Below are positions 15,700-52,622 of a stretch of 64,000 nt of DNA, piece by piece. Location of the stretch: assembly GCA_021927905.1 (NCBI GenBank), contig BLLK01000047.1, positions 2,356,001 through 2,420,000 of the forward strand, given 5' to 3'. Numbering within the stretch: position 1 is the first letter of the stretch; each line of letters opens with the position of its first letter. The position numbers were made by a program, and so were the translations under genes. The notes under the pieces are model-generated. The model had not been told where the DNA came from. It was given only the letters and a program-made list of their open reading frames with translations, and did not search any database. The stretch comes from Chaetoceros tenuissimus. Its lineage: Eukaryota > Bacillariophyta > Thalassiosirophyceae > Chaetocerotales > Chaetocerotaceae.

Positions 15700-16872
15700 A
15701 TGAATACGCTTTTGACAATTTCGAACCTTTCGATTTTCCTTCTTTGGGGGGCATCGCAGTACATACTGATTCCATATGTGGCGCATTTACTCTTGCTTGT
15801 CACTTGCATTCTATACACAGCATGTCATTACTCTCTCATTTTGCGTGAAGAGCAAGCACTCGCTCGTGGAGAAATCGATCCTGCCAATCCAAAGAAGTCT
15901 CAAGAAAATGTTCCTATATCCGAAACATTGAAAGCTGAAGATGCAATGCAGTTTCCTTTGGTTGGTTCGGCATCATTGTTTGGACTATACTGTGCATTCA
16001 AATTCTTTGACAAAGAAACTGTCAATCTAATTCTCAGTGCATATTTTGCTCTCATGGGTTGTGGAGCTGTTACAGCAACAGCTTCTCCAATCATTTCCAC
16101 CGCTGGAGGAGTATTCACTTCTGTCAAAATTAAGAAAAAATTCACCATTAAGCATCCGCTTCCTGCATTCATTGGAGGGGAGTCACCATGGGAAATCGAC
16201 ATTGATTTTACTTTGGCAGATTTAGTTTCACTTGTTGGAAGTGCAATTTTTTCATACTTTTATTTCCAAAAGAAGCATTGGGTCATGAATAATGTTCTTG
16301 GAATTTGTTTCTGCCTCAAGGGAATTGAAAGATTCAGTCTCGGAACGTATAAAATCGGTGCTATCCTTTTGGTAGGTCTCTTTTTCTATGATATCTTTTG
16401 GGTTTTTGGAACGGATGTAATGGTGACTGTGGCAAAGTCTCTCGATGGTCCAATCAAAATTTTGTTTCCACGTAGTTTAGTGCCACATCCTGAGACTGGA
16501 AAAATTGAGTTGAGTTTACTCGGACTTGGTGATATTGTTATTCCTGGATTCTTTTTGGCTCTTTTGTTGAGATTTGATGCTCATAATGCAAATGTCAAGT
16601 ATTTTCCAACAAATGTAATGGCTTCATTCCCGAAGCCATACTTTCATTCAGCTCTAGTTGGGTATATCATTGGAATGGCTACAACCATGTTTGTCATGAT
16701 CAAGTTCAATGCTGCCCAACCTGCACTTTTGTACCTTGTTCCTGCTTGTTTAGGGAGCTCATTCTTGACTGCAATTGTTCGTGGGGAAGTCAAAGCTATG
16801 CTAGCATACAGTGAAGAAGTAGAGGAAGAAGAAATTGAGAAGAAGAATACGGACGAGAAGAAAAATGACTAA
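15700..16872 (+). CDS. SPP: Signal peptide peptidase (presenilin-family intramembrane aspartyl protease)
   Basis: A 390-residue intronless protein of about nine membrane helices, the usual SPP length. It cleaves leftover signal peptides and some type II membrane proteins within the ER membrane. The active-site aspartates are D231 in LFFYDIFWVFGT and D278 in GLGDIVIPG, and the PAL motif is QPALLY starting at Q340. EDAMQFPLVGSA is another family signature. The C-terminus ends KKND, a KKxx ER-retrieval signal, which agrees with an ER protease. The start codon chosen gives an N-terminal hydrophobic helix aligned with plant SPPs. It converges with the VASt gene. Confidence 0.95.
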   Translation: MNTLLTISNLSIFLLWGASQYILIPYVAHLLLLVTCILYTACHYSLILREEQALARGEIDPANPKKSQENVPISETLKAEDAMQFPLVGSASLFGLYCAFKFFDKETVNLILSAYFALMGCGAVTATASPIISTAGGVFTSVKIKKKFTIKHPLPAFIGGESPWEIDIDFTLADLVSLVGSAIFSYFYFQKKHWVMNNVLGICFCLKGIERFSLGTYKIGAILLVGLFFYDIFWVFGTDVMVTVAKSLDGPIKILFPRSLVPHPETGKIELSLLGLGDIVIPGFFLALLLRFDAHNANVKYFPTNVMASFPKPYFHSALVGYIIGMATTMFVMIKFNAAQPALLYLVPACLGSSFLTAIVRGEVKAMLAYSEEVEEEEIEKKNTDEKKND

Positions 16873-37623: not shown

Positions 37624-39084
37624 TTAGTCCCGCTTTCTTCTTTCAGTTGATGTCTCCAATGCTTGTTTTACTTCATTCAATAGCCGAGGTTTAAAAAGTA
37701 CTTCAGCATGTCTAATATTGTTCCAGACCGTATAAAATATATTTTTTCTAGCAGACCCTACAAGATGGCGATCTAGCTCTTTTTGTATTTTACAAGCATT
37801 GAGAATAACATCGTCTTCAGCCAGAAATATATAAGTATCGCACGGTATATCTTCAAGCCAAAGTTCTGAATTAAACCACGCAAATTTTCGTCTCAAATAA
37901 TCCTCAATAAATAACTCGGATGATGCAAGCAAGCGTACTACTTCGATGTTCAATCTTTGTATCCAATTCATTTGATCCTTTTTATTTCGATCGGAATACA
38001 GGAAATTCGAAAGAACGTCTGGGAAGGATAATAAAATTGATACTGGATCGATTAGAACCACCTTACGAATCAATGGTCTTATTTCCTTTGCTTTTAATAT
38101 CCATGTTGATTGAAACGTTCCAAAGCTATGAGAAACTATGTACAATCCATTCTTCAACTTTTTGTGTCTGCGTAAAGCCTTTTGAACTGCATCTACCATT
38201 TCTTCTTCGTCAAGCGCATGAAATGATAACGAACAAGTTATTGAATGAGTTTCAGGTATGAATACACACCTATTCATTTGATTCAAGCAATAAACAATAA
38301 ACGGAATATAATTGGCAAGCCCCCCTGGCGAAATTCCATGTTGAAACAATATTGTTTCATCATTTTGATGCTTTGATATATCTCTAGAGTCCCGAAACCA
38401 ATAGGTCATATGATTTCCACTTTCGCATTGTATTGTGTACCTACGATATCCAAACATCAGCAGTATTAGATAGCCTAACATTCTAATCCAACCGAAGAAG
38501 AAGTAAAATGCTAAGGGTCGGTGTATACTGTTGCTTTTCTCAAGAGTCATACATCTGGGTATAAATGTGCAATCTCTTGATGTCATATCCTTTTCCCTCT
38601 GAAAAGTTATCCCATAATTCTCCAACATTTTGAACATAACGGCTATTTCATCACTTTCCCATGTCTCCAAACGATACCATTGTTTGTCAAAAAATGCCCA
38701 TGAGAAGAAGATTTCAACGCTTTGCCTATCGACAGAATCAAGGAACGAAAATGACATCTCACTCTTTTTCTTTTCACGCGAGACAAGATCCTTTTTACTT
38801 TTATTAGGAATAACATCAAACCACCCTCTCAAAAATATATCAAATTCATCACGAAACTCTTTGCCCTCGACTTCGCAGTTTTTTTGTACTCGATCCAAAA
38901 TCCTTTTCAACAGTTGATGCCGATGGGTCAAAGGATCATGTGAGATATGTTGATAATCTCGACATATCTTTGGACTCTTTCTACTAAGATCGTTCGACTT
39001 TGGTTTCATTATAAAATGAAATACAAAGTAGAAAATTATTTCACAAATAAATATTATTTTGAATACATTGTCTTGGGACATCAT
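37624..39084 (-). CDS. Alpha/beta hydrolase-fold protein with N-terminal membrane helix
   Basis: A 486-residue protein. The first 25 residues are hydrophobic (VFKIIFICEIIFYFVFHFIM), likely a signal anchor, and another hydrophobic stretch (LAFYFFFGWIRMLGYLILLMFGY) occurs near residues 200-220. The hydrolase core has LFQHGISPGG (oxyanion region, HG), the nucleophile elbow VSHSFGTFQS (Ser within G/S-x-S-x-G-like HSFG), the acid in FLAEDDVIL and the base in IRHAEVLF. The first half (residues 30-190) is helical and charged, without a known domain. Lipase, esterase or acyltransferase activity cannot be distinguished. Confidence 0.7.
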   Translation of the reverse strand: MMSQDNVFKIIFICEIIFYFVFHFIMKPKSNDLSRKSPKICRDYQHISHDPLTHRHQLLKRILDRVQKNCEVEGKEFRDEFDIFLRGWFDVIPNKSKKDLVSREKKKSEMSFSFLDSVDRQSVEIFFSWAFFDKQWYRLETWESDEIAVMFKMLENYGITFQREKDMTSRDCTFIPRCMTLEKSNSIHRPLAFYFFFGWIRMLGYLILLMFGYRRYTIQCESGNHMTYWFRDSRDISKHQNDETILFQHGISPGGLANYIPFIVYCLNQMNRCVFIPETHSITCSLSFHALDEEEMVDAVQKALRRHKKLKNGLYIVSHSFGTFQSTWILKAKEIRPLIRKVVLIDPVSILLSFPDVLSNFLYSDRNKKDQMNWIQRLNIEVVRLLASSELFIEDYLRRKFAWFNSELWLEDIPCDTYIFLAEDDVILNACKIQKELDRHLVGSARKNIFYTVWNNIRHAEVLFKPRLLNEVKQALETSTERRKRD

Positions 39085-39372
39085 GATCTCGATGCTTACG
39101 AATACATAGATATGAACCGATCTTGCCTTAGTTCTTTATTGTGGTCAACTCTTGGTACTCATTAGAAGTACTCATCGCATTGAAATCCATAATTTAAGTC
39201 TCTACAGGGTCTGGAACCTTTCCACTTTCCGATGATTCTTCTTCTTTTCCAACGAATTGGAGATTGGAGAGGTGCGCCAATTTTAAAAAATTGATTTGTA
39301 ATCAAGACCTGTCAAAACCACGAGTGATACATTTTTCTGGATACTTAACATCCCAGAATCCCACTTTTTTTT

Positions 39373-40126
39373 GAAAAATTCAGGCTCACATGTTTCAAAA
39401 AAAATATTTGGTGAACCGGTTTCTGTTTCTGTTTCGACGAAGAAAATTTCGTGAACACTGTTTCTGTTTCAACTGTTTCAATTAGTTTTGGTGAACAGTT
39501 TTGAAACTGTTTCAGAAACATAGACAATGTGGCTGAAAGCTACTACACCACAAACGGACAATAGAAATGATCACAATGAAAAAATTCATATAAAATCTAA
39601 GTATTTATGGATAGAAACATAAAACCAAAATACGGATTTGTCCCAAAAATATACACTCATATAAATTGAATGTAAGGTGAAAACTTTGGTTGTGGTGGTT
39701 AATTAAAAATTTCGTACATTGAGGTCAAGTGTACACTCAAAATACCAAATATCTTTTCAGCCCAATTTGGAATTTCCAGGGTGATGGCTGCAAGCCACTA
39801 GGCCTGAGGCATAGCAACTGTGTCCAATTCAAAACTGGTCAATTTTCTTCACCCGTATAATCTAGCCTATCTAAGAGAGATTTTGATCTAGAATGGCTTT
39901 TGATGTATCTGAAAAGGGCGATTTTGATTGGCTGAAAAGTCCAAGAAAAAGGTGTTTCAACACCCCGAAATGGAGGGTATTTGGTGAACACGTTTCAATG
40001 TTTCTGAAACACGTAGCTATTTGGTGAACAGTGTTTGTTTCTGTTTCAAGCCTGTTTCAAGGGATTTGGTGAACACGAAACAAACAGTTTTGAAACAATT
40101 ATGAAACGTGTGAGCCTGGAAAAATT
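39373..40126. mobile_element. Non-autonomous hAT-like foldback element (MITE) with 8-bp target duplication
   Basis: The element spans 39381-40118 (738 bases). The direct repeats GAAAAATT flank it exactly, at 39373-39380 and 40119-40126. The ends are inverted: CAGGCTCACATGTTTC on the left and, read on the other strand, CAGGCTCACACGTTTC on the right (15 of 16 matching). Starting with CAGG and having an 8-bp duplication fits the hAT superfamily; P-like and Merlin elements also give 8-9 bp duplications. There are five copies of TTTGGTGAAC (39407, 39487, 39980, 40020, 40065) plus one variant at 39447. All are in the same orientation near the two ends, and are probably transposase-binding repeats. 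No transposase frame exists inside, so it depends on a partner. Confidence 0.88.
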
Positions 40127-40271
40127 CACCTCATCAGCAAACCAACAACAGCAAGAACACCTCCAGCAGTTCTCATGTTCTCATGTTCTCATGGTTCTTC
40201 ATCTTTGATTATTATAACTAATCAAACTTTTCGCTGTGGAAAAGATATTGAATTCTACACTCACTACCAAC

Positions 40272-41510
40272 ATGAGATTCCTTCATCTACAATCATCATT
40301 ACAAGCATGCGTTGGCGTGCTAGCGCTGACAATCTCAAATGCATCAAGCTACGGTCTCAACACAAAGTCGAAGCATGTAGGCGAGTACATTGCAGAGACA
40401 GGATTCTACCAATCACTGACTCTGACAGATGAAGAACCTATTCTTGAGAAAAGATCCGAATTTCAAGATATTCAGGTAATGAACTCAGTGTATTATGGTA
40501 AAGTTCTGATTCTTGATGGAGTTATTCAGTTGACTGAGAAAGATGCAGATAGCTACAATGAGATGATGGTACATCCTGCTATGATGGCGCATCCGAAGCC
40601 GAAAAGAGTTCTTGTGATTGGAGGTGGAGACGGTAAGTTCAGAATGTTGTTCAATGCATGAGCCAAGTGATCAAGATTCGTGAATTCAACACCTGCTTTT
40701 AAAATCCGTTACAGGCTATGTTTTGTCAGAAGTATTGAAACATCCTGAAGTCGAACATGTAGATCATGTGGATCTAGATGGAGAAGTCATTCAAGTTTGT
40801 CGTGACCATTTTTCGTGGGGTAACGCTTGGGAAGACCCAAGAGTTAAGCTCCATATTGCGGATGGAGCAGCATTCATTGCAAACGCAACTGATTCTTCGT
40901 ATGATGTGATCATCCAAGACAGTTCTGATCCATATACTTGGGATGACGAAACTGGAGAAAAAATAGATCTCCCTTCGAAAACTCTTTACTCTGATGCTCA
41001 CTTCACAAACATTTCTAGAGTTCTTGGTGAAAAGGGGGTGTTTAGTTTCCAAGCAGAGGTACGTTAGAACAATTAGTAGTACTGCTATGTTTTTTATTTC
41101 GTTTAGTGTTCTCACAATTCTACTAGACTTTCAACATTGAATCAGACCTTGAAGGAATTGTGGAATGGAGACAGCGTGCACTTGATGTTGGATTTTCAGA
41201 TGCAAACTATGGAACTATTTCAATCAGCTCGTATCCCACTGGGCAAATTGGTTTCCTTCTATGTAGAAAGAACCCCGTATCAAGTCCATCGATTGAACTT
41301 GTCAAGAAGAGATTTGACCAGATTGTGAAGTTGGGAAAGGAGACAACATATTATCATCCAACTTTGCAGCAAACTGCATTTGCTCTGCCCCTATGGGTTC
41401 ACCGACGTATCTATAAGTCTCCTACTCCAAAAATCGGTTTACTTGAGGAGGAACATGAAGTGGTGGATTTGGAAGTGCTACCACAAGCAGATATTCAATC
41501 TCCTCAATAA
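40272..41510 (+). CDS. Spermidine synthase-like aminopropyltransferase with signal peptide (three exons)
   Basis: Exons 40272-40632, 40715-41058 and 41127-41510 give 362 residues; both introns are GT-AG (82 and 68 bases), phases 1 and 0. Polyamine synthases transfer aminopropyl from decarboxylated SAM. The family blocks are ETGFYQSLTL, SVYYGKVLILDGVIQLTEKD, EMMVHPAMMAHPKPKRVLVIGGGDG, then VDHVDLDGEVIQVCRDHF and DVIIQDSSDPYTW. GGGDGG of the family is here GGGDGY, one Gly replaced by Tyr. The start chosen, MRFLHLQSSLQACVGVLALT, gives a signal peptide ending in NASS. That suggests an ER, plastid or silica-vesicle route, rather than the cytosol. Substrate (spermidine, spermine or long-chain polyamine) is not decided. 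Confidence 0.85.
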
Positions 41511-41709: not shown

Positions 41710-43338
41710 TTACCAACCACTGAAATCACCAAACGTTGTCTTTTTAGGAGGTTTTGGTAGTCTTGATATCGGCACAGCATCGTAGCTTTGGTCATCAAGA
41801 ATCTGTGTCTTCACTTTGTTTTGTTTTATATATTTTCCTACGACAGGCCCTGTATCTGCTTCAATCTTTGCCGCAATTGGGACCTTCACTGGTTTTGTTC
41901 CTAAAGCACTATTCTTCCTCTCTTCTTTCTCTGCCTTCATAGCATCAGCTCGCTTTTGTATCCTCAAGCGTTCGTTTTCAATGGCTTCATCAATTGGACT
42001 ATACAAAACATCTGCAGTAATAATTCTGATTTCCTGTTGGGGACGATCTTTTTTATCTGTCTGGATACTTTCCATTGCCGACAAAACATCCAGCCCTTTA
42101 ATGACTTTGCCAAAAACACTGTGCTTGCGGTCTAAATGTGGTGCACTCTTGTAAGTTATAAAGAATTGTCTTTTATTTGTATGTTGCCCGGCGTTAGCCA
42201 TACTGAGAACACCAGGCCCAACGTGTTTTAATCGGTCGTCAAACTCATCTTTGAAAGCTCCTCCCCAAAAACTCTCTTCACTTTCACTTTTATTGGATGG
42301 TTTTCCTCCTTGTATCATAAAGTTTCGAATTGATCTATGAAACTTTGTGTCGTTGTATGCTCCCTTCTCAACTAGTCGAATAAAATTCATGCTTGTCCTA
42401 GGCACAATGTCGCAATGAATCTCCAAATCAATAAAACCTAAATTGGTATTGAATCTGACAAAGCCTTTTCTCTTCAACTTCTTCATTGCTGAGAAATTTG
42501 CCTCTAATATTTCTTCTTCTGTAGCTTCCCTTGCAGTATTGTCATTGCTAATGTTCAGCGCTGTACTCGTAAAAGATCCCGATGCTTGACCAGAAGTCAT
42601 ACTCACCCCTGTCAATTCATCTGTAAATATTTTGAGCTTCTTGCCATCTTTTTTCACATCATTTTGCTTTGCCTTTTGTTCGTCTTCCCTCTTGCGTTTA
42701 ATCTTGTCAACAATCCTAGTGGCTGACACAGACAGCTTCACATCGCTTTTCTCTTGTTCCTCTTGCAAATGCTGTTTCCTCAAACTACTCGTATGTTTGA
42801 AGTTGTTTACATCCCTAAGTTGGTTCAACTCCATATTTGCGCTATCTTGCAATGTGATAATGTCAGTTTTCTGAAATTTATCCCCGGATATCAAATCTAG
42901 ATAGCTTTTCGCTTTGATGTTTAGTTCATGCACTGCTTCATAACTATATACATTGGCTGTAGATTTATCTTTTTGCAATACTGCCACGATTTTGGTGTGA
43001 TTTAAAAATGGTTTGTTCAGTACTGGACACTGCCACTTTCCTTCTTCACTTTTATCCATTTGAAGAGTAATAAGATCAGATGTTTTCATAGCTTTGCCAG
43101 TGACTGGATCAGCCTTGTGTTTCAGTATATATGGTATGATTGCTGAATTTTCAAATATAATTCCATTTGATCCACAAAGTCGCATAACTGGGTTTGAGTA
43201 GGGCGTTAATGTTAGAGCACAGCAGTCAAATGGTACAGGTCGAGTAGAGAATCCTGTTCTATTTCCGCTTCGAAGTTGTGAATTTTGGCGATGCTCTGCT
43301 GACGATTGATACTGCTTCTCTTTTTGACGTTTAACCAT
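41710..43338 (-). CDS. PPIL2: PPIL2-type U-box cyclophilin
   Basis: A 542-residue peptidyl-prolyl isomerase of the spliceosome-associated U-box class. The N-terminal U-box reads PFDCCALTLTPYSNPVM, then AIIPYILKHKADPVTG, ending WQCPVLNKPFLNHTKI, a second Cys-containing U-box-like part. The middle is charged and Lys/Glu-rich. The cyclophilin domain starts GFVRFNTNLGFIDLEIHCD, with the catalytic FHRSIRNFMIQGG and the QFFITYKSAPHLDRKHSVFGKV stretch. The C-terminal tail is Lys/Glu-rich with an Ala/Pro segment. No introns. Human PPIL2 is a spliceosome-associated protein; ubiquitin-ligase activity is family precedent. Confidence 0.93.
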   Translation of the reverse strand: MVKRQKEKQYQSSAEHRQNSQLRSGNRTGFSTRPVPFDCCALTLTPYSNPVMRLCGSNGIIFENSAIIPYILKHKADPVTGKAMKTSDLITLQMDKSEEGKWQCPVLNKPFLNHTKIVAVLQKDKSTANVYSYEAVHELNIKAKSYLDLISGDKFQKTDIITLQDSANMELNQLRDVNNFKHTSSLRKQHLQEEQEKSDVKLSVSATRIVDKIKRKREDEQKAKQNDVKKDGKKLKIFTDELTGVSMTSGQASGSFTSTALNISNDNTAREATEEEILEANFSAMKKLKRKGFVRFNTNLGFIDLEIHCDIVPRTSMNFIRLVEKGAYNDTKFHRSIRNFMIQGGKPSNKSESEESFWGGAFKDEFDDRLKHVGPGVLSMANAGQHTNKRQFFITYKSAPHLDRKHSVFGKVIKGLDVLSAMESIQTDKKDRPQQEIRIITADVLYSPIDEAIENERLRIQKRADAMKAEKEERKNSALGTKPVKVPIAAKIEADTGPVVGKYIKQNKVKTQILDDQSYDAVPISRLPKPPKKTTFGDFSGW

Positions 43339-48319: not shown

Positions 48320-50653
48320 ATGAAATTTCTATCTTCATCGCTGGTGTCAGTGGTAGCTTCATCCTTCTGCATCACTAGTGCTGCAGGCGACAAAACATTG
48401 ACATTAGATCATCCTTTCCAGACCTCTTTCAAGAAGCTACCTCAAAAGCCATGTGTATCATTATTTACTCGTGAAGGCCGTATTGGATGTGGAACTAGCG
48501 ATAGAGAAAGTATGGTCGGCCAAGTATTATCTTGGACCAAACTTATGAATAGCAATTATTACAACCAGATCGCACAAAAGTTACCTAAATTTGTAGCCGT
48601 TTTAGGAGAACACGAATACAATGCTCAAACCGTTGAACAAATCATTGCCAATTCTGATTCATCGTTGCTCCAAGGGATTCTTGTCGTGAATGCGACTTCA
48701 TCTGATGGAAGTAGCTCGCAGGGATATTATAGTCCTGCCCCAGTTTCGCCAAGAGGAGAAGATAGTCCTTCAGCACAGTTGACTCCAGATAATGGCTATG
48801 CATGGAATACTTATGGGGATGGGCTTATTCTAAAAGACATGTATGGTATTCCAACCGGTTTTGTACAAGACTCGAGAATTGCAGAATATATGTATAACGC
48901 TGGTGACCAACAGGCTACTGATTTTATTGCAAAACTGTCGAACGAGAATGTAAATGTATTCGATGAAGAAATTAAAAAGTTTCCTCCAATCATGGCAGAA
49001 TTTGATCTTTACATGGGACCAGAGGAGATGAATTCGGTAGATTGCTTGAGTTGGATTGATAATGACGGAAATTGGAGACCTAAGTGTTTGCCGCTCGGCG
49101 GCACAAGTGTGTACGCTACAGCTGGAACTCCTTACACACGTGGAGATAGCAATGAGGAGAAAAAGCCCATTGTCATTGTTGGAACAAATATGGATGCCAC
49201 AGCTATGTTTCATGACTTATCATTTGGTGCAAATTCAGCAGCAGGGAATATCTTGGCAGTGTTAATGGCTGCTAAATTGTTTGGAGAGTCAGTGACAGAT
49301 GACATATTAGATGGGCTACAGAACAAAATCATGTTTGCATTCTTCCAAGGAGAAAATTATGGATACATTGGCTCGAGATCATTCTTAAGAGATGTTGCTT
49401 ATCCAGGTTTTGAATGCAGTGAGAATGGAACAGTGCCAGCATTGGCAAAAGAAAAGGATAAGGAGAATCCTAAAATGGCATGTTTGTCTCCACTTAGGCA
49501 TGACTTGGATTTTATGGATCTTGGGAATATTCAACACATGATTACAGTCGATCAAGTTGGAATTCTAACCACTGAGAACACATTTTATGCTTATGATAGT
49601 ACTGGAAACAATGTTTTGACAGGTCTTAGTAGCGATGATTGGACTGTTGCAGCATCATCAGCTGGTGCTTTGCCACCAACTCCTTTGTCGTCATTGGTAT
49701 CCCTGTCAGGTGGAAATGTTGGAGGAATGGTACTCACTGGTTACGATGACGCATATGCAGCAAAGTCGAACTATCTTTCACACAAAGATACCGCGGCAAG
49801 TGGTAATATCAATCTCGAAGCTATTGCGAAGGCTGCTACAATCATTGCAAGAGCAGCCCTGGTATCTGCATATGGTGACAATTACGATGGTAGTGCTATG
49901 AATACAATCCCTGACCTTGATGCAGATGATGAAGACTTCAAAAAGGCTGCAAATTGTTTTTTCGAAGATGGAAATTGTGACTTACTCACAAATTTTGCAA
50001 AGATGGAACGCGGTAATATGCGAGTCACCCATGATGCAGATTTGGGAATCGGGCCATCTTTAGGAAAGCCACCACAATACTACCCAAGTGTACTAGATAG
50101 TAGAAATGGCCAGCCATTCGTCCAAGTAGATGGAAAGAGCTATGGAGCTTATAATGGAGATAAAACTTATGGAGAGAACAAAGACGATAAATTCTTAGTC
50201 CGACCTAACCTTCTTTCGATGTCACTTTATGGCTTGCTCAATGATTATCTTGGAAGAGGAGGATTAGAAGCAAGTGGAGATAGCAATCTCAAGAAATGTC
50301 AGAGTTCAAGTGAGTGCTCGAAAGTTTCTTGTAGCTCTGGTATAGACCCAGCTGTATGCACTGGGTCTAAAGTTTGCGTCTGCCCAAGGGCACATTATCA
50401 CTTGGCATTGGATGAAGGTCTTGTAGCATCTCCAAATAATTCTACAGGTGTGTTTATTCCATCAGATGATGATGATAGTGTCAGTCCAATGTATACCGAA
50501 CCATATTGGAGCAATGATATTGGAGTTCATGTTTATAGAGCATCTGGAAGCTCTGCAAGTTGGACATTGGGTGTTGGTTTCGTAACAGCTGCTGGATGTG
50601 TGGCAGCTTCTATTTTCTTGAATAGGAGTCTACGCAAACAGAAGCTTTACTAA
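48320..50653 (+). CDS. NCSTN: Nicastrin (gamma-secretase subunit)
   Basis: A 777-residue type I membrane glycoprotein starting at MKFLSSSLVSVVASSFCITS (signal peptide). The frame opens six codons earlier, which would break the leader. The ectodomain has the nicastrin block HPFQTSFKKLPQKPCVSLFTREGRIGCGTS and GDGLILKDMYGIPTGFV. The M28-like fold shows VIVGTNMDATAMFHDLSFGANS and NKIMFAFFQGENYGYIGSRSF. That last part contains GYIGS, the counterpart of DYIGS in animal nicastrin, and MITVDQVG. Next come Cys-rich SSECSKVSCSSG, a membrane helix (WTLGVGFVTAAGCVAASIFL) and a short basic tail. It should recruit substrates for a presenilin-type protease. Confidence 0.93.
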   Translation: MKFLSSSLVSVVASSFCITSAAGDKTLTLDHPFQTSFKKLPQKPCVSLFTREGRIGCGTSDRESMVGQVLSWTKLMNSNYYNQIAQKLPKFVAVLGEHEYNAQTVEQIIANSDSSLLQGILVVNATSSDGSSSQGYYSPAPVSPRGEDSPSAQLTPDNGYAWNTYGDGLILKDMYGIPTGFVQDSRIAEYMYNAGDQQATDFIAKLSNENVNVFDEEIKKFPPIMAEFDLYMGPEEMNSVDCLSWIDNDGNWRPKCLPLGGTSVYATAGTPYTRGDSNEEKKPIVIVGTNMDATAMFHDLSFGANSAAGNILAVLMAAKLFGESVTDDILDGLQNKIMFAFFQGENYGYIGSRSFLRDVAYPGFECSENGTVPALAKEKDKENPKMACLSPLRHDLDFMDLGNIQHMITVDQVGILTTENTFYAYDSTGNNVLTGLSSDDWTVAASSAGALPPTPLSSLVSLSGGNVGGMVLTGYDDAYAAKSNYLSHKDTAASGNINLEAIAKAATIIARAALVSAYGDNYDGSAMNTIPDLDADDEDFKKAANCFFEDGNCDLLTNFAKMERGNMRVTHDADLGIGPSLGKPPQYYPSVLDSRNGQPFVQVDGKSYGAYNGDKTYGENKDDKFLVRPNLLSMSLYGLLNDYLGRGGLEASGDSNLKKCQSSSECSKVSCSSGIDPAVCTGSKVCVCPRAHYHLALDEGLVASPNNSTGVFIPSDDDDSVSPMYTEPYWSNDIGVHVYRASGSSASWTLGVGFVTAAGCVAASIFLNRSLRKQKLY

Positions 50654-50948: not shown

Positions 50949-52622
50949 ATGGCAAAAAAGAATAAAGGAAAGAAGAGAAAAAATGATCTATCGAAGAGGG
51001 AACGTGATGGCAAGATTTCAAAGGAGAAGATATCTCTGCCTCAACTTCTGAAGAAAAACAGAGGAACTGCTGCGACGACTCCTCTACCTCCAGCATGGAG
51101 CACGTTGCCTCCTAATCCACCAAAGTTTCTAACACCGGATGATGAAGGTTTTGAAAGTCTAAAGAGCGAATGTTACAGGGGTTTTGTGTATGAAAATCCT
51201 AAAGATATTGATGACGATATACATGAATGCTTCTCATCTTCCTTTCATGGTTTGGACCAATCTGGATTATTTCTTTATGACGTAGTTCAACCCGGCGGTA
51301 AAAAACTTAGTCTAACATTTGTAACAAGAACTTTGGTTGGAAATGCAGGGTCCACGTATAAGTACCTTGGTTTGCGACTTTTTTCCCATCCTTGGAATGA
51401 TGTTACTGGAGATGGTGATGATGATCTGAATAGTAATAATGCATCACAAAAGACTACCACAGGAGAATCACTTATCGAGCTGGGGTATTCAAAGAAATGC
51501 GCAAAAGCTCTGATCAAATTAGGTATAATAAACAAAAAACTGAGAAAGAGAACAGATCATGTGCTTCAAAGGGAGATAGCACCACTTGTGAAAGATAATT
51601 TGGTGGGTTCAGCAGATTACACAATTACTTTGATCAACAAAATGGAACCTACACGATCCAAAAAAGATTTAAAGAATGACAAGGTGCATGGTTTGGGAAA
51701 AACGAGTGTATCTTGGCACAAGGACAGTGGTCTGAATGATTTCTCTTCAATTGCTGTTTATCACCAACTTGAGAATACAAGTGATGACATCCCATGGAAA
51801 GTTGCTTTAAGAGTTGCAGATGCAAACGTTAAAACACCAGCATTATCAGTACCACTCCCAAGTAAATCTCTATACTACCTCTTGGATGATTTCAACCACC
51901 AGCATGAACATGCTGTGATTGCTGGATCTAATTCACTCCGATATTCATCAACCCATCGTGTCGCTAGAGATGGAGCAGGAACATATCAATACATTAGAGA
52001 TAAATGTCGCAAAGTACTATCATATACTGTGTGCAAGACTATTTTGAAGGCAATACAGTCAAATACAGACCCTTCCTTTGACGATAGTGACAAGCCCAAG
52101 GTGGAAAAAGAGTTGAGAGCATGCAATCAGTTGATAACAGAATTAGAATTTGAGTGGATTCGTCAGTGGTACATTCAAGGCAAATTGCACGCTCGATTAC
52201 ATCCCTATTGGGAGGATAAAATATCTTATCTTGAAGAGTGCTATTTGAAGCTTCACAGCATTGTAAATTATATCAATAGCCTATTCGAAGAGAATAGAGA
52301 TAAATATGGTATCATAACAGAAGACCTATTTGACATTTTCATTGAGTATGCCGAAAGTAGAAATGAATTGAGGCTTGCGTGGAAACAAAGGCTTAAAGAT
52401 TCTGTATTCAAGTCTCTTGACGTGCAAGCACGACCTTCCGAATGCTCAACTTTGAATAACTGTAAGGAAGCTGGGGGAATAGAATTGAGACAATGGAAAA
52501 GTAATTTTTGCAGTAAGGGTACTGCCAGCAAAAAGAGGAAACGAGAGAAAAAATCGGCATTGACCAAGAAGGAGAAGAAGCGAGTTGCATCTAACTGGGA
52601 GAAAATGAAGAAGAAATTTTGA
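50949..52622 (+). CDS. FTO: FTO homologue (RNA N6-methyladenine demethylase family)
   Basis: A 557-residue protein starting at MAKKNKGKKRKN (Met6 of the open frame). The 2OG-Fe(II) domain has iron ligands H262 and D264 (SVSWHKDSG; residues counted from the earlier Met) and H326 in HEHAVIAGS, with R336 and S338 of LRYSSTHRVA for 2-oxoglutarate. DDFNHQHEHAVIAGSNSL and the strand SKSLYYLLDD are hallmarks of FTO rather than AlkB. N-terminal LTPDDEGFESL and LSLTFVTRTLVG, also family-like. The C-terminal helical domain is present (residues 370-500), then a Lys-rich tail with RKREKKSALTKKEKKR. FTO is known from vertebrates and some marine algae. Confidence 0.92.
   Translation: MAKKNKGKKRKNDLSKRERDGKISKEKISLPQLLKKNRGTAATTPLPPAWSTLPPNPPKFLTPDDEGFESLKSECYRGFVYENPKDIDDDIHECFSSSFHGLDQSGLFLYDVVQPGGKKLSLTFVTRTLVGNAGSTYKYLGLRLFSHPWNDVTGDGDDDLNSNNASQKTTTGESLIELGYSKKCAKALIKLGIINKKLRKRTDHVLQREIAPLVKDNLVGSADYTITLINKMEPTRSKKDLKNDKVHGLGKTSVSWHKDSGLNDFSSIAVYHQLENTSDDIPWKVALRVADANVKTPALSVPLPSKSLYYLLDDFNHQHEHAVIAGSNSLRYSSTHRVARDGAGTYQYIRDKCRKVLSYTVCKTILKAIQSNTDPSFDDSDKPKVEKELRACNQLITELEFEWIRQWYIQGKLHARLHPYWEDKISYLEECYLKLHSIVNYINSLFEENRDKYGIITEDLFDIFIEYAESRNELRLAWKQRLKDSVFKSLDVQARPSECSTLNNCKEAGGIELRQWKSNFCSKGTASKKRKREKKSALTKKEKKRVASNWEKMKKKF

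Follow-up and report, generated by a model that had tools for sequence, protein, structure and literature searches.

What is the 738-bp segment that lies between two divergent genes of the diatom Chaetoceros tenuissimus, one of which codes for an aminopropyltransferase? Its ends are inverted repeats bordered by short direct repeats, which raises the question of whether it is an inserted transposon and, if so, of which superfamily. We address it using the window (the whole 64-kb stretch of DNA that was analysed) and searches for relatives in other collections.

Ends, coding content and surroundings of the element

Reading the sequence from 38900 to 41500, together with repeat finding, places the element at 39381-40118 (Table 1). 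The left tip (CAGGCTCACATGTTTC, 39381-39396) and the right tip (CAGGCTCACACGTTTC, 40103-40118 on the minus strand) are identical at 15 of 16 positions, and at 18 of 20 when 20 nt are compared; a longer inverted repeat was ruled out, since tip identity breaks down past ~20 nt. GAAAAATT is present as an exact copy on both sides. The literal direct repeat is 10 bp, because CA comes after each copy of GAAAAATT, and the target-site duplication is 8 bp long in the reading that symmetrically abuts both inverted repeats. Merlin-type ends starting with GG were also ruled out, because the flanks are then without duplication.

Table 1. Positions in the window of the element, its repeats and the two flanking genes
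Feature	Position	Strand	Remark
Left target-site duplication GAAAAATT	39373..39380	.	Exact copy abutting left inverted repeat
Right target-site duplication GAAAAATT	40119..40126	.	Exact copy abutting right inverted repeat
Non-autonomous DNA transposon (MITE-like), very probable	39381..40118	.	738 bp
Left terminal inverted repeat	39381..39400	+	One mismatch in 16 bp; 90% identity over 20 nt
Right terminal inverted repeat	40099..40118	-	
Subterminal motif 1, TTTGGTGAAC	39407..39416	+	26 bp from left tip
Subterminal motif 2, TTTCGTGAAC (one mismatch)	39447..39456	+	40 bp beyond motif 1
Subterminal motif 3, TTTGGTGAAC	39487..39496	+	40 bp beyond motif 2
Palindrome TGTTTCAGAAACA, innermost left unit	39508..39520	.	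TGTTTC[AT]GAAACA, twice in 64 kb
Core without recognisable coding content	39531..39949	.	0 GTTTC, 1 GAAAC
Subterminal motif 4, TTTGGTGAAC	39980..39989	+	Orientation as motifs 1-3
ACACGTTTC, internal repeat of inner tip part	39988..39996	+	Third ACAYGTTTC copy
Palindrome TGTTTCTGAAACA, innermost right unit	39999..40011	.	TGTTTC[AT]GAAACA, right-end copy
Subterminal motif 5, TTTGGTGAAC	40020..40029	+	
Subterminal motif 6, TTTGGTGAAC	40065..40074	+	44 bp from right tip
Aminopropyltransferase first exon, spermidine/spermine synthase family (end inferred by eye)	40272..40631	+	PF17284 E 2.5e-12, PF01564 E 4.9e-8
Divergent neighbour, 486-aa alpha/beta-hydrolase-like ORF, start 39084	37624..39084	-	PF00561 E 3.1e-4, below curated cut-off

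We scanned the window for pairs of 16-nt inverted repeats, ~80-3000 bp apart, that have at most two mismatches and an exact outer 8 nt and that are bordered by exact direct repeats of 8-10 bp; left ends were taken from all but the final ~3 kb of the window. The 738-bp element is the sole match, and 30 Markov-shuffled windows give none. With the tips fixed, the probability of a chance 8-bp match between the flanks is ~2e-5. Two looser end scans separate real from shuffled windows poorly. Allowing 3 mismatches in 16 nt, together with a duplication of 5 bp or more, gives 3 matches (20 shuffled windows give 0-3); allowing 2 mismatches in 12 nt, together with a duplication of 6 bp or more, gives 8 matches, three of which are one overlapping low-complexity case (shuffled windows give 0-6). 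The tip pattern, searched with up to three mismatches, is found twice in the window, both times exactly, where 0.83 matches are expected, and 20 of 100 shuffles reach two. What makes the case strong is that near-perfect tips occur together with an exact duplication directly against them.

Recognisable coding content is lacking in the element. Nine start-codon frames of at least 30 aa overlap it, the longest of 60 aa, and its right end is spanned by a 112-aa stop-to-stop frame (40094-40432). Eight of these nine frames, compared with Pfam (E up to 1), give no match above the cut-off; three matches fall below it, the best being TORC_N (E 0.0041, 18.2 bits versus 25). A hAT element would be moved by a transposase with BED and hAT dimerisation domains. 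No transposase family was detected by Pfam (E up to 0.001) among the 30 listed ORFs of the window with 200 aa or more and 10 further frames; of 96 stop-to-stop frames, 39 were covered by Pfam comparisons.

The element has two features of MITEs: a target-site duplication borders its terminal inverted repeats, and it is short (738 bp) and devoid of transposase coding capacity. We conclude that the segment is very probably the insertion of a non-autonomous cut-and-paste DNA transposon of MITE size. A MITE would be expected in multiple copies in its host genome; the 64-kb window contains one. The exact duplication and the matching tips suggest that the insertion is fairly young rather than long retained.

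The first exon of the aminopropyltransferase matches the Pfam families Spermine_synt_N and Spermine_synth. The two divergent genes are separated by a spacer of 1187 bp, which shrinks to 441 bp once the element and one copy of the duplication are subtracted. The initial annotation is upheld on most of these points, namely the 16-bp inverted ends with one mismatch, the perfect 8-bp duplication abutting them, the lack of coding capacity inside and the aminopropyltransferase downstream; it placed the right end 154 bases before the start codon, a distance that we correct to 153 bases (ATG at 40272). A short tandem repeat with an 8-bp unit (GTTCTCAT, 3.6 copies) lies at 40169-40198, between the element and this ATG. 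A reading as a bacterial-type promoter was discarded: 4 sigma-70-like sites are found where 3.6 are expected, and the organism is also of the wrong type.

Elsewhere, the window codes for a protein that matches the nucleic-acid demethylase FTO in both its catalytic and its C-terminal domain (50949-52622, + strand; PF12933 E 4.5e-78, PF12934 E 1.9e-28), a nicastrin-like protein and a signal-peptide-peptidase/presenilin-type protease (48320-50653 and 15700-16872, both on the + strand), and a cyclophilin-type isomerase (41710-43338, - strand) with a weak, sub-cut-off match to a NOSIP-type zinc finger near its N-terminus. Rieske/pheophorbide a oxygenase and Mg-chelatase are also among the Pfam matches of the window, and several of its proteins have signal-like starts, as judged by eye; both observations suit a photosynthetic stramenopile such as a diatom.

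Subterminal arrays, folding and searches for relatives

When both strands of the window are searched, TTTGGTGAAC is found as five exact copies, all inside the element and all on the + strand. The five same-direction repeats toward the ends reported in the initial annotation are thereby recovered, and we add a sixth copy with one mismatch (TTTCGTGAAC). If one mismatch is allowed throughout, TTTGGTGAAC has 12 sites in the window, 6 of which are outside the element, where 6.2 are expected; 2 of 100 shuffles reach 12 sites. The motifs form two three-unit arrays; successive units are 40 bp apart in the left array, and 40 and then 45 bp apart in the right one. A block of ~95 bp (93 and 98 bp aligned) is common to both ends, in direct and not inverted orientation: the direct alignment of the left and right subterminal blocks has a score of 75, versus 29 for the inverted comparison and a maximum of 33 among 500 shuffled pairs, and their blastn identity is 76%.

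The pentamer GTTTC occurs 14 times in the element (1.35 copies are expected from the window density): 8 times in the left 150 bp, 6 times in the right 169 bp and never in the 419-bp core. GAAAC is found twice in the left end, four times in the right end and once in the core. The longer pattern ACAYGTTTC has three copies on the two strands of the window, one at each tip and one in subterminal unit 4. Two copies of the palindrome TGTTTCWGAAACA are present in the window. Each end has one of them in its innermost unit, at distances of 127 and 107 bp from the tips. From these sequences, we infer that the tips and the arrays carry candidate binding sites of one common transposase.

When the element is folded as a single DNA strand, its minimum free energy is -107.8 kcal/mol, versus -75.2 kcal/mol (sd 3.3) for 20 shuffles of it (z -9.8). 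Further shuffle sets give z -5.4 (8 shuffles) and z -5.5 (15 shuffles); the z value varies with the estimate of the spread, while the gap of ~30 kcal/mol to the shuffles is stable. For 25 other segments of this length, the free energy falls at most 9.9 kcal/mol below that of shuffles, and z is no lower than -3.2. Of the 243 predicted pairs, 57 link the left and right end segments. Folded separately, the core, the right end and the left end give z -3.0, -2.4 and -1.0, respectively; the ends are not the sole cause of the folding, because the core alone is also below its shuffles. Folding from the tips alone was ruled out, as z is still -4.2 after removal of 20 nt from each end.

In viral contigs, two loci match the tip pattern (L001, L002), two match an 18-base motif pattern (L003, L004) and ten match paired motifs (L005-L014). 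We judge these 14 loci unrelated to the element. No second tip within 2 mismatches is present in L001-L015, and by blast the element matches L001-L014 over short stretches (at best 18 bp at 100%, E 0.007). In 10 of the 12 motif loci, the motif is spanned by an open frame of 314 codons or more (the frames of L003 and L010 are shorter, 55 and 69 codons), and the tip matches of L001 and L002 fall within open frames of 513 and 264 codons. L015, the sole viral-contig match to a palindrome-plus-motif pattern, was also set aside; it lies inside a 750-aa ORF, without direct repeats, on a contig that we judge by eye to be phage-like. The tip combined with an internal motif has no match in the viral contigs or in two genome-contig scans. 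The first exon of the aminopropyltransferase gives 5 pattern matches in viral contigs, none of them confirmed as a relative. Seventeen phage records match the element weakly (E 0.8 among the 5 matches listed), and plasmid records do not match it. Because all these collections are viral or prokaryotic, the absence of relatives says little about the copy number in the host.

Three of the viral loci have short tandem arrays of palindromic GTTCA-like/TGAAC units (L006:2931-3075, L012:406-500 and L013:7916-8055). The units recur at ~21-22 bp and contain TTTGGTGAAC, and L006 and L013 look alike. These arrays resemble arrays of protein-binding sites; by blast, they have only the 10-mer in common with the element.

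Superfamily and rival explanations

Regarding the superfamily, hAT is the likeliest because the 8-bp duplication, the short inverted repeats and the subterminal repeats fit. hAT elements generate 8-bp duplications (PMC4763223), and the element has one, as seen at a single insertion. Repeated subterminal motifs are present near both of its ends (6 motifs, 14 GTTTC and two TGTTTCWGAAACA palindromes). Tips of hAT elements generally follow the rule YARNG. The tip CAGGC agrees with it at bases 1-4, and has C instead of G at base 5. The target site is not of the nTnnnnAn type preferred by Hermes, since position 2 of GAAAAATT is A and position 7 is T, and the same is true of its reverse complement; this preference is that of Hermes and is not universal, and some sites in the table of PMC2803484 depart from it. 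Confidence in hAT is limited because a single copy is visible, the target site is unlike nTnnnnAn, base 5 is off YARNG and 8-bp duplications are not exclusive to hAT. Judging by these sequence features, the element probably belongs to hAT, as the most likely superfamily rather than a proven one. Of the initial description as a hAT-like MITE, the MITE-like insertion, its ends and duplication being intact, is well supported, and the hAT part becomes a best guess, which base 5 and the target site do not fit.

In the mechanism that we propose, the element would have inserted once into the 441-bp spacer between the divergent genes. A transposase encoded elsewhere in the genome would bind the subterminal units, which consist of TTTGGTGAAC and GTTTC and have ACAYGTTTC in common with the tips, pair the two CAGGC tips and then excise the element. 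The excised tips would be joined to the target across an 8-bp stagger, and the gap would be filled by the cell. Some of the subterminal motifs may have no role in binding, because Hermes retains ~70% of its activity when the inner putative binding sites of its left end are mutated; the binding of auxiliary transposases to these inner sites is called unlikely (PMC10368747).

It is also possible, but unlikely, that the cut-and-paste MITE belongs to another superfamily that makes 8-bp duplications (P, Zisupton/KDZ or Novosib) and is moved by the transposase of that superfamily. Zisupton/KDZ and Novosib produce 8-bp duplications as well, and P-element tips begin with CA. The base-5 C and a target site off the hAT rules used here point in the same direction. 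P elements and P-derived MITEs of Anopheles have perfect 8-bp duplications (PMC1562414), as does the 738-bp element; however, the inverted repeats of Anopheles P elements are 27-31 bp long (PMC1562414) versus 16-20 bp here. Dense subterminal motifs, on the other hand, are documented for hAT elements (PMC4763223, PMC10368747, PMC3260210), and the 12 superfamilies listed for the diatom Cyclotella cryptica in the extract of PMC7466962 include hAT but not P, Zisupton or Novosib.

Another hypothesis, which would add to a transposon insertion and not replace it, is that the copy has been co-opted and supplies promoter or enhancer sites to the aminopropyltransferase or to the divergent gene. The right end is 153 bp from the ATG, the six like-oriented motifs form two arrays and the spacer has been widened from 441 to 1187 bp, yet transposition alone accounts for the motifs, and the matching tips and exact duplication point to a fairly young insertion; as judged from the sequence, such a role would be improbable.

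That the segment is no transposon at all, and instead an inverted repeat that arose by chance or was made by the host, enclosing a motif-rich part of a bidirectional promoter that is regulatory or minisatellite-like, is very improbable: its divergent intergenic location, its arrays, which look like a degenerate ~40-bp tandem repeat, its single known copy and the looser end scans, which match shuffled windows as often or nearly so, would agree with this, but the exact 8-bp duplications combined with 15/16 tips are found in 0 of 30 shuffled windows and nowhere else in the window, and the motif-rich segments stop at the tips, all 14 GTTTC of the element being in its end segments.

Taken as a MITE-like transposon insertion, the unit is of use in several respects. 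Insertions with intact ends are handles for active transposons in algae, in which few have been characterised. Its clean structure provides a specific search query (CAGGCTCACAYGTTTC plus the 738-bp unit) and a concrete hypothesis on how a transposase may tell left from right ends. Its position, between divergent genes and 153 bp before a gene of polyamine synthesis, makes presence or absence in different strains a simple regulatory test.

Comparison with known systems

No diatom family with CAGGCTCACA ends was found among the papers of one open-access library, and of the 59 papers in which TTTGGTGAAC occurs, the 20 listed seem unrelated from their titles. MITEs have already been reported as a class in the diatom Phaeodactylum tricornutum (PMC5859163, whose main text does not contain the term hAT), and hAT is listed as a class for C. 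cryptica (PMC7466962). The element is of the same class as these; in the extracts, they are known by counts or names and not by end sequences. Its kind is ordinary, its ends are unusually neat, and its family is probably undescribed so far.

The P-derived MITEs of Anopheles gambiae are like the element in their perfect 8-bp duplication and similar sizes, and they have an interior unrelated to P between ends of the P type (PMC1562414). Their parent P elements differ from it by their inverted repeats of 27-31 bp, and the extract does not mention a regular subterminal array.

The motif arrays of the element share one direction at both ends, so that its left and right ends are unlike. That the transposase makes use of this direction is a guess. 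A rather doubtful extension of it would be a family in which both ends are built from one ~95-bp array, its ~40-bp units running in direct orientation and bounded by inverted tips, which would give the element an inherent left and right despite its nearly identical tips, bring six putative sites between the divergent genes and possibly let end pairing follow the array direction. The repeat polarity of Kat1 differs between its ends (PMC4763223). In the 738-bp element, on the contrary, the polarity is the same, a point against hAT. We take both ends of Hermes to be read from the tip inward, which amounts to a single direction along that element; if so, the arrays of the 738-bp element would be hAT-like in direction too. 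The Hermes repeats are antisense in the left end (repeats 2-7) and sense in the right end (repeats 1-5), and a symmetrised left/left Hermes is inactive in cells and is not rescued when the asymmetric binding sites are restored (PMC10368747). Array-guided end pairing is less likely because this rescue failed and because the mutants of the inner left end remained ~70% active.

Hermes, a hAT element of the house fly, is otherwise like the 738-bp element in that short motifs are gathered at the tips, one of them within an inverted repeat (the right one), in that it has a quasi-palindromic motif pair and in that the arrangement is unequal between the ends; it requires no less than ~220 bp at either end (PMC10368747). 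The differences are in the motif, AAG(T/C), in the quasi-palindrome, which occupies bp 11-27 of the left end of Hermes whereas the palindromes of the element are 127 and 107 bp from the tips, and in the target nTnnnnAn, which GAAAAATT does not fit.

The maize Ac/Ds system (hAT) has 11-bp terminal inverted repeats, the hexamer AAACGG and an autonomous partner, whereas the element has inverted repeats of 16-20 bp and TTTGGTGAAC with GTTTC at steps of 40-45 bp, and is known from a single copy in the window. In Ac, hexamers bound by the transposase lie within 200 bp of each end (PMC3260210). Ds1 and Ds2 are like the element in their short inverted ends, their 8-bp duplications and their repeated motifs within 200 bp of the ends, which in Ac/Ds are bound by the transposase, and we count as a further likeness that their interior is partly replaced by unrelated filler (PMC3260210).
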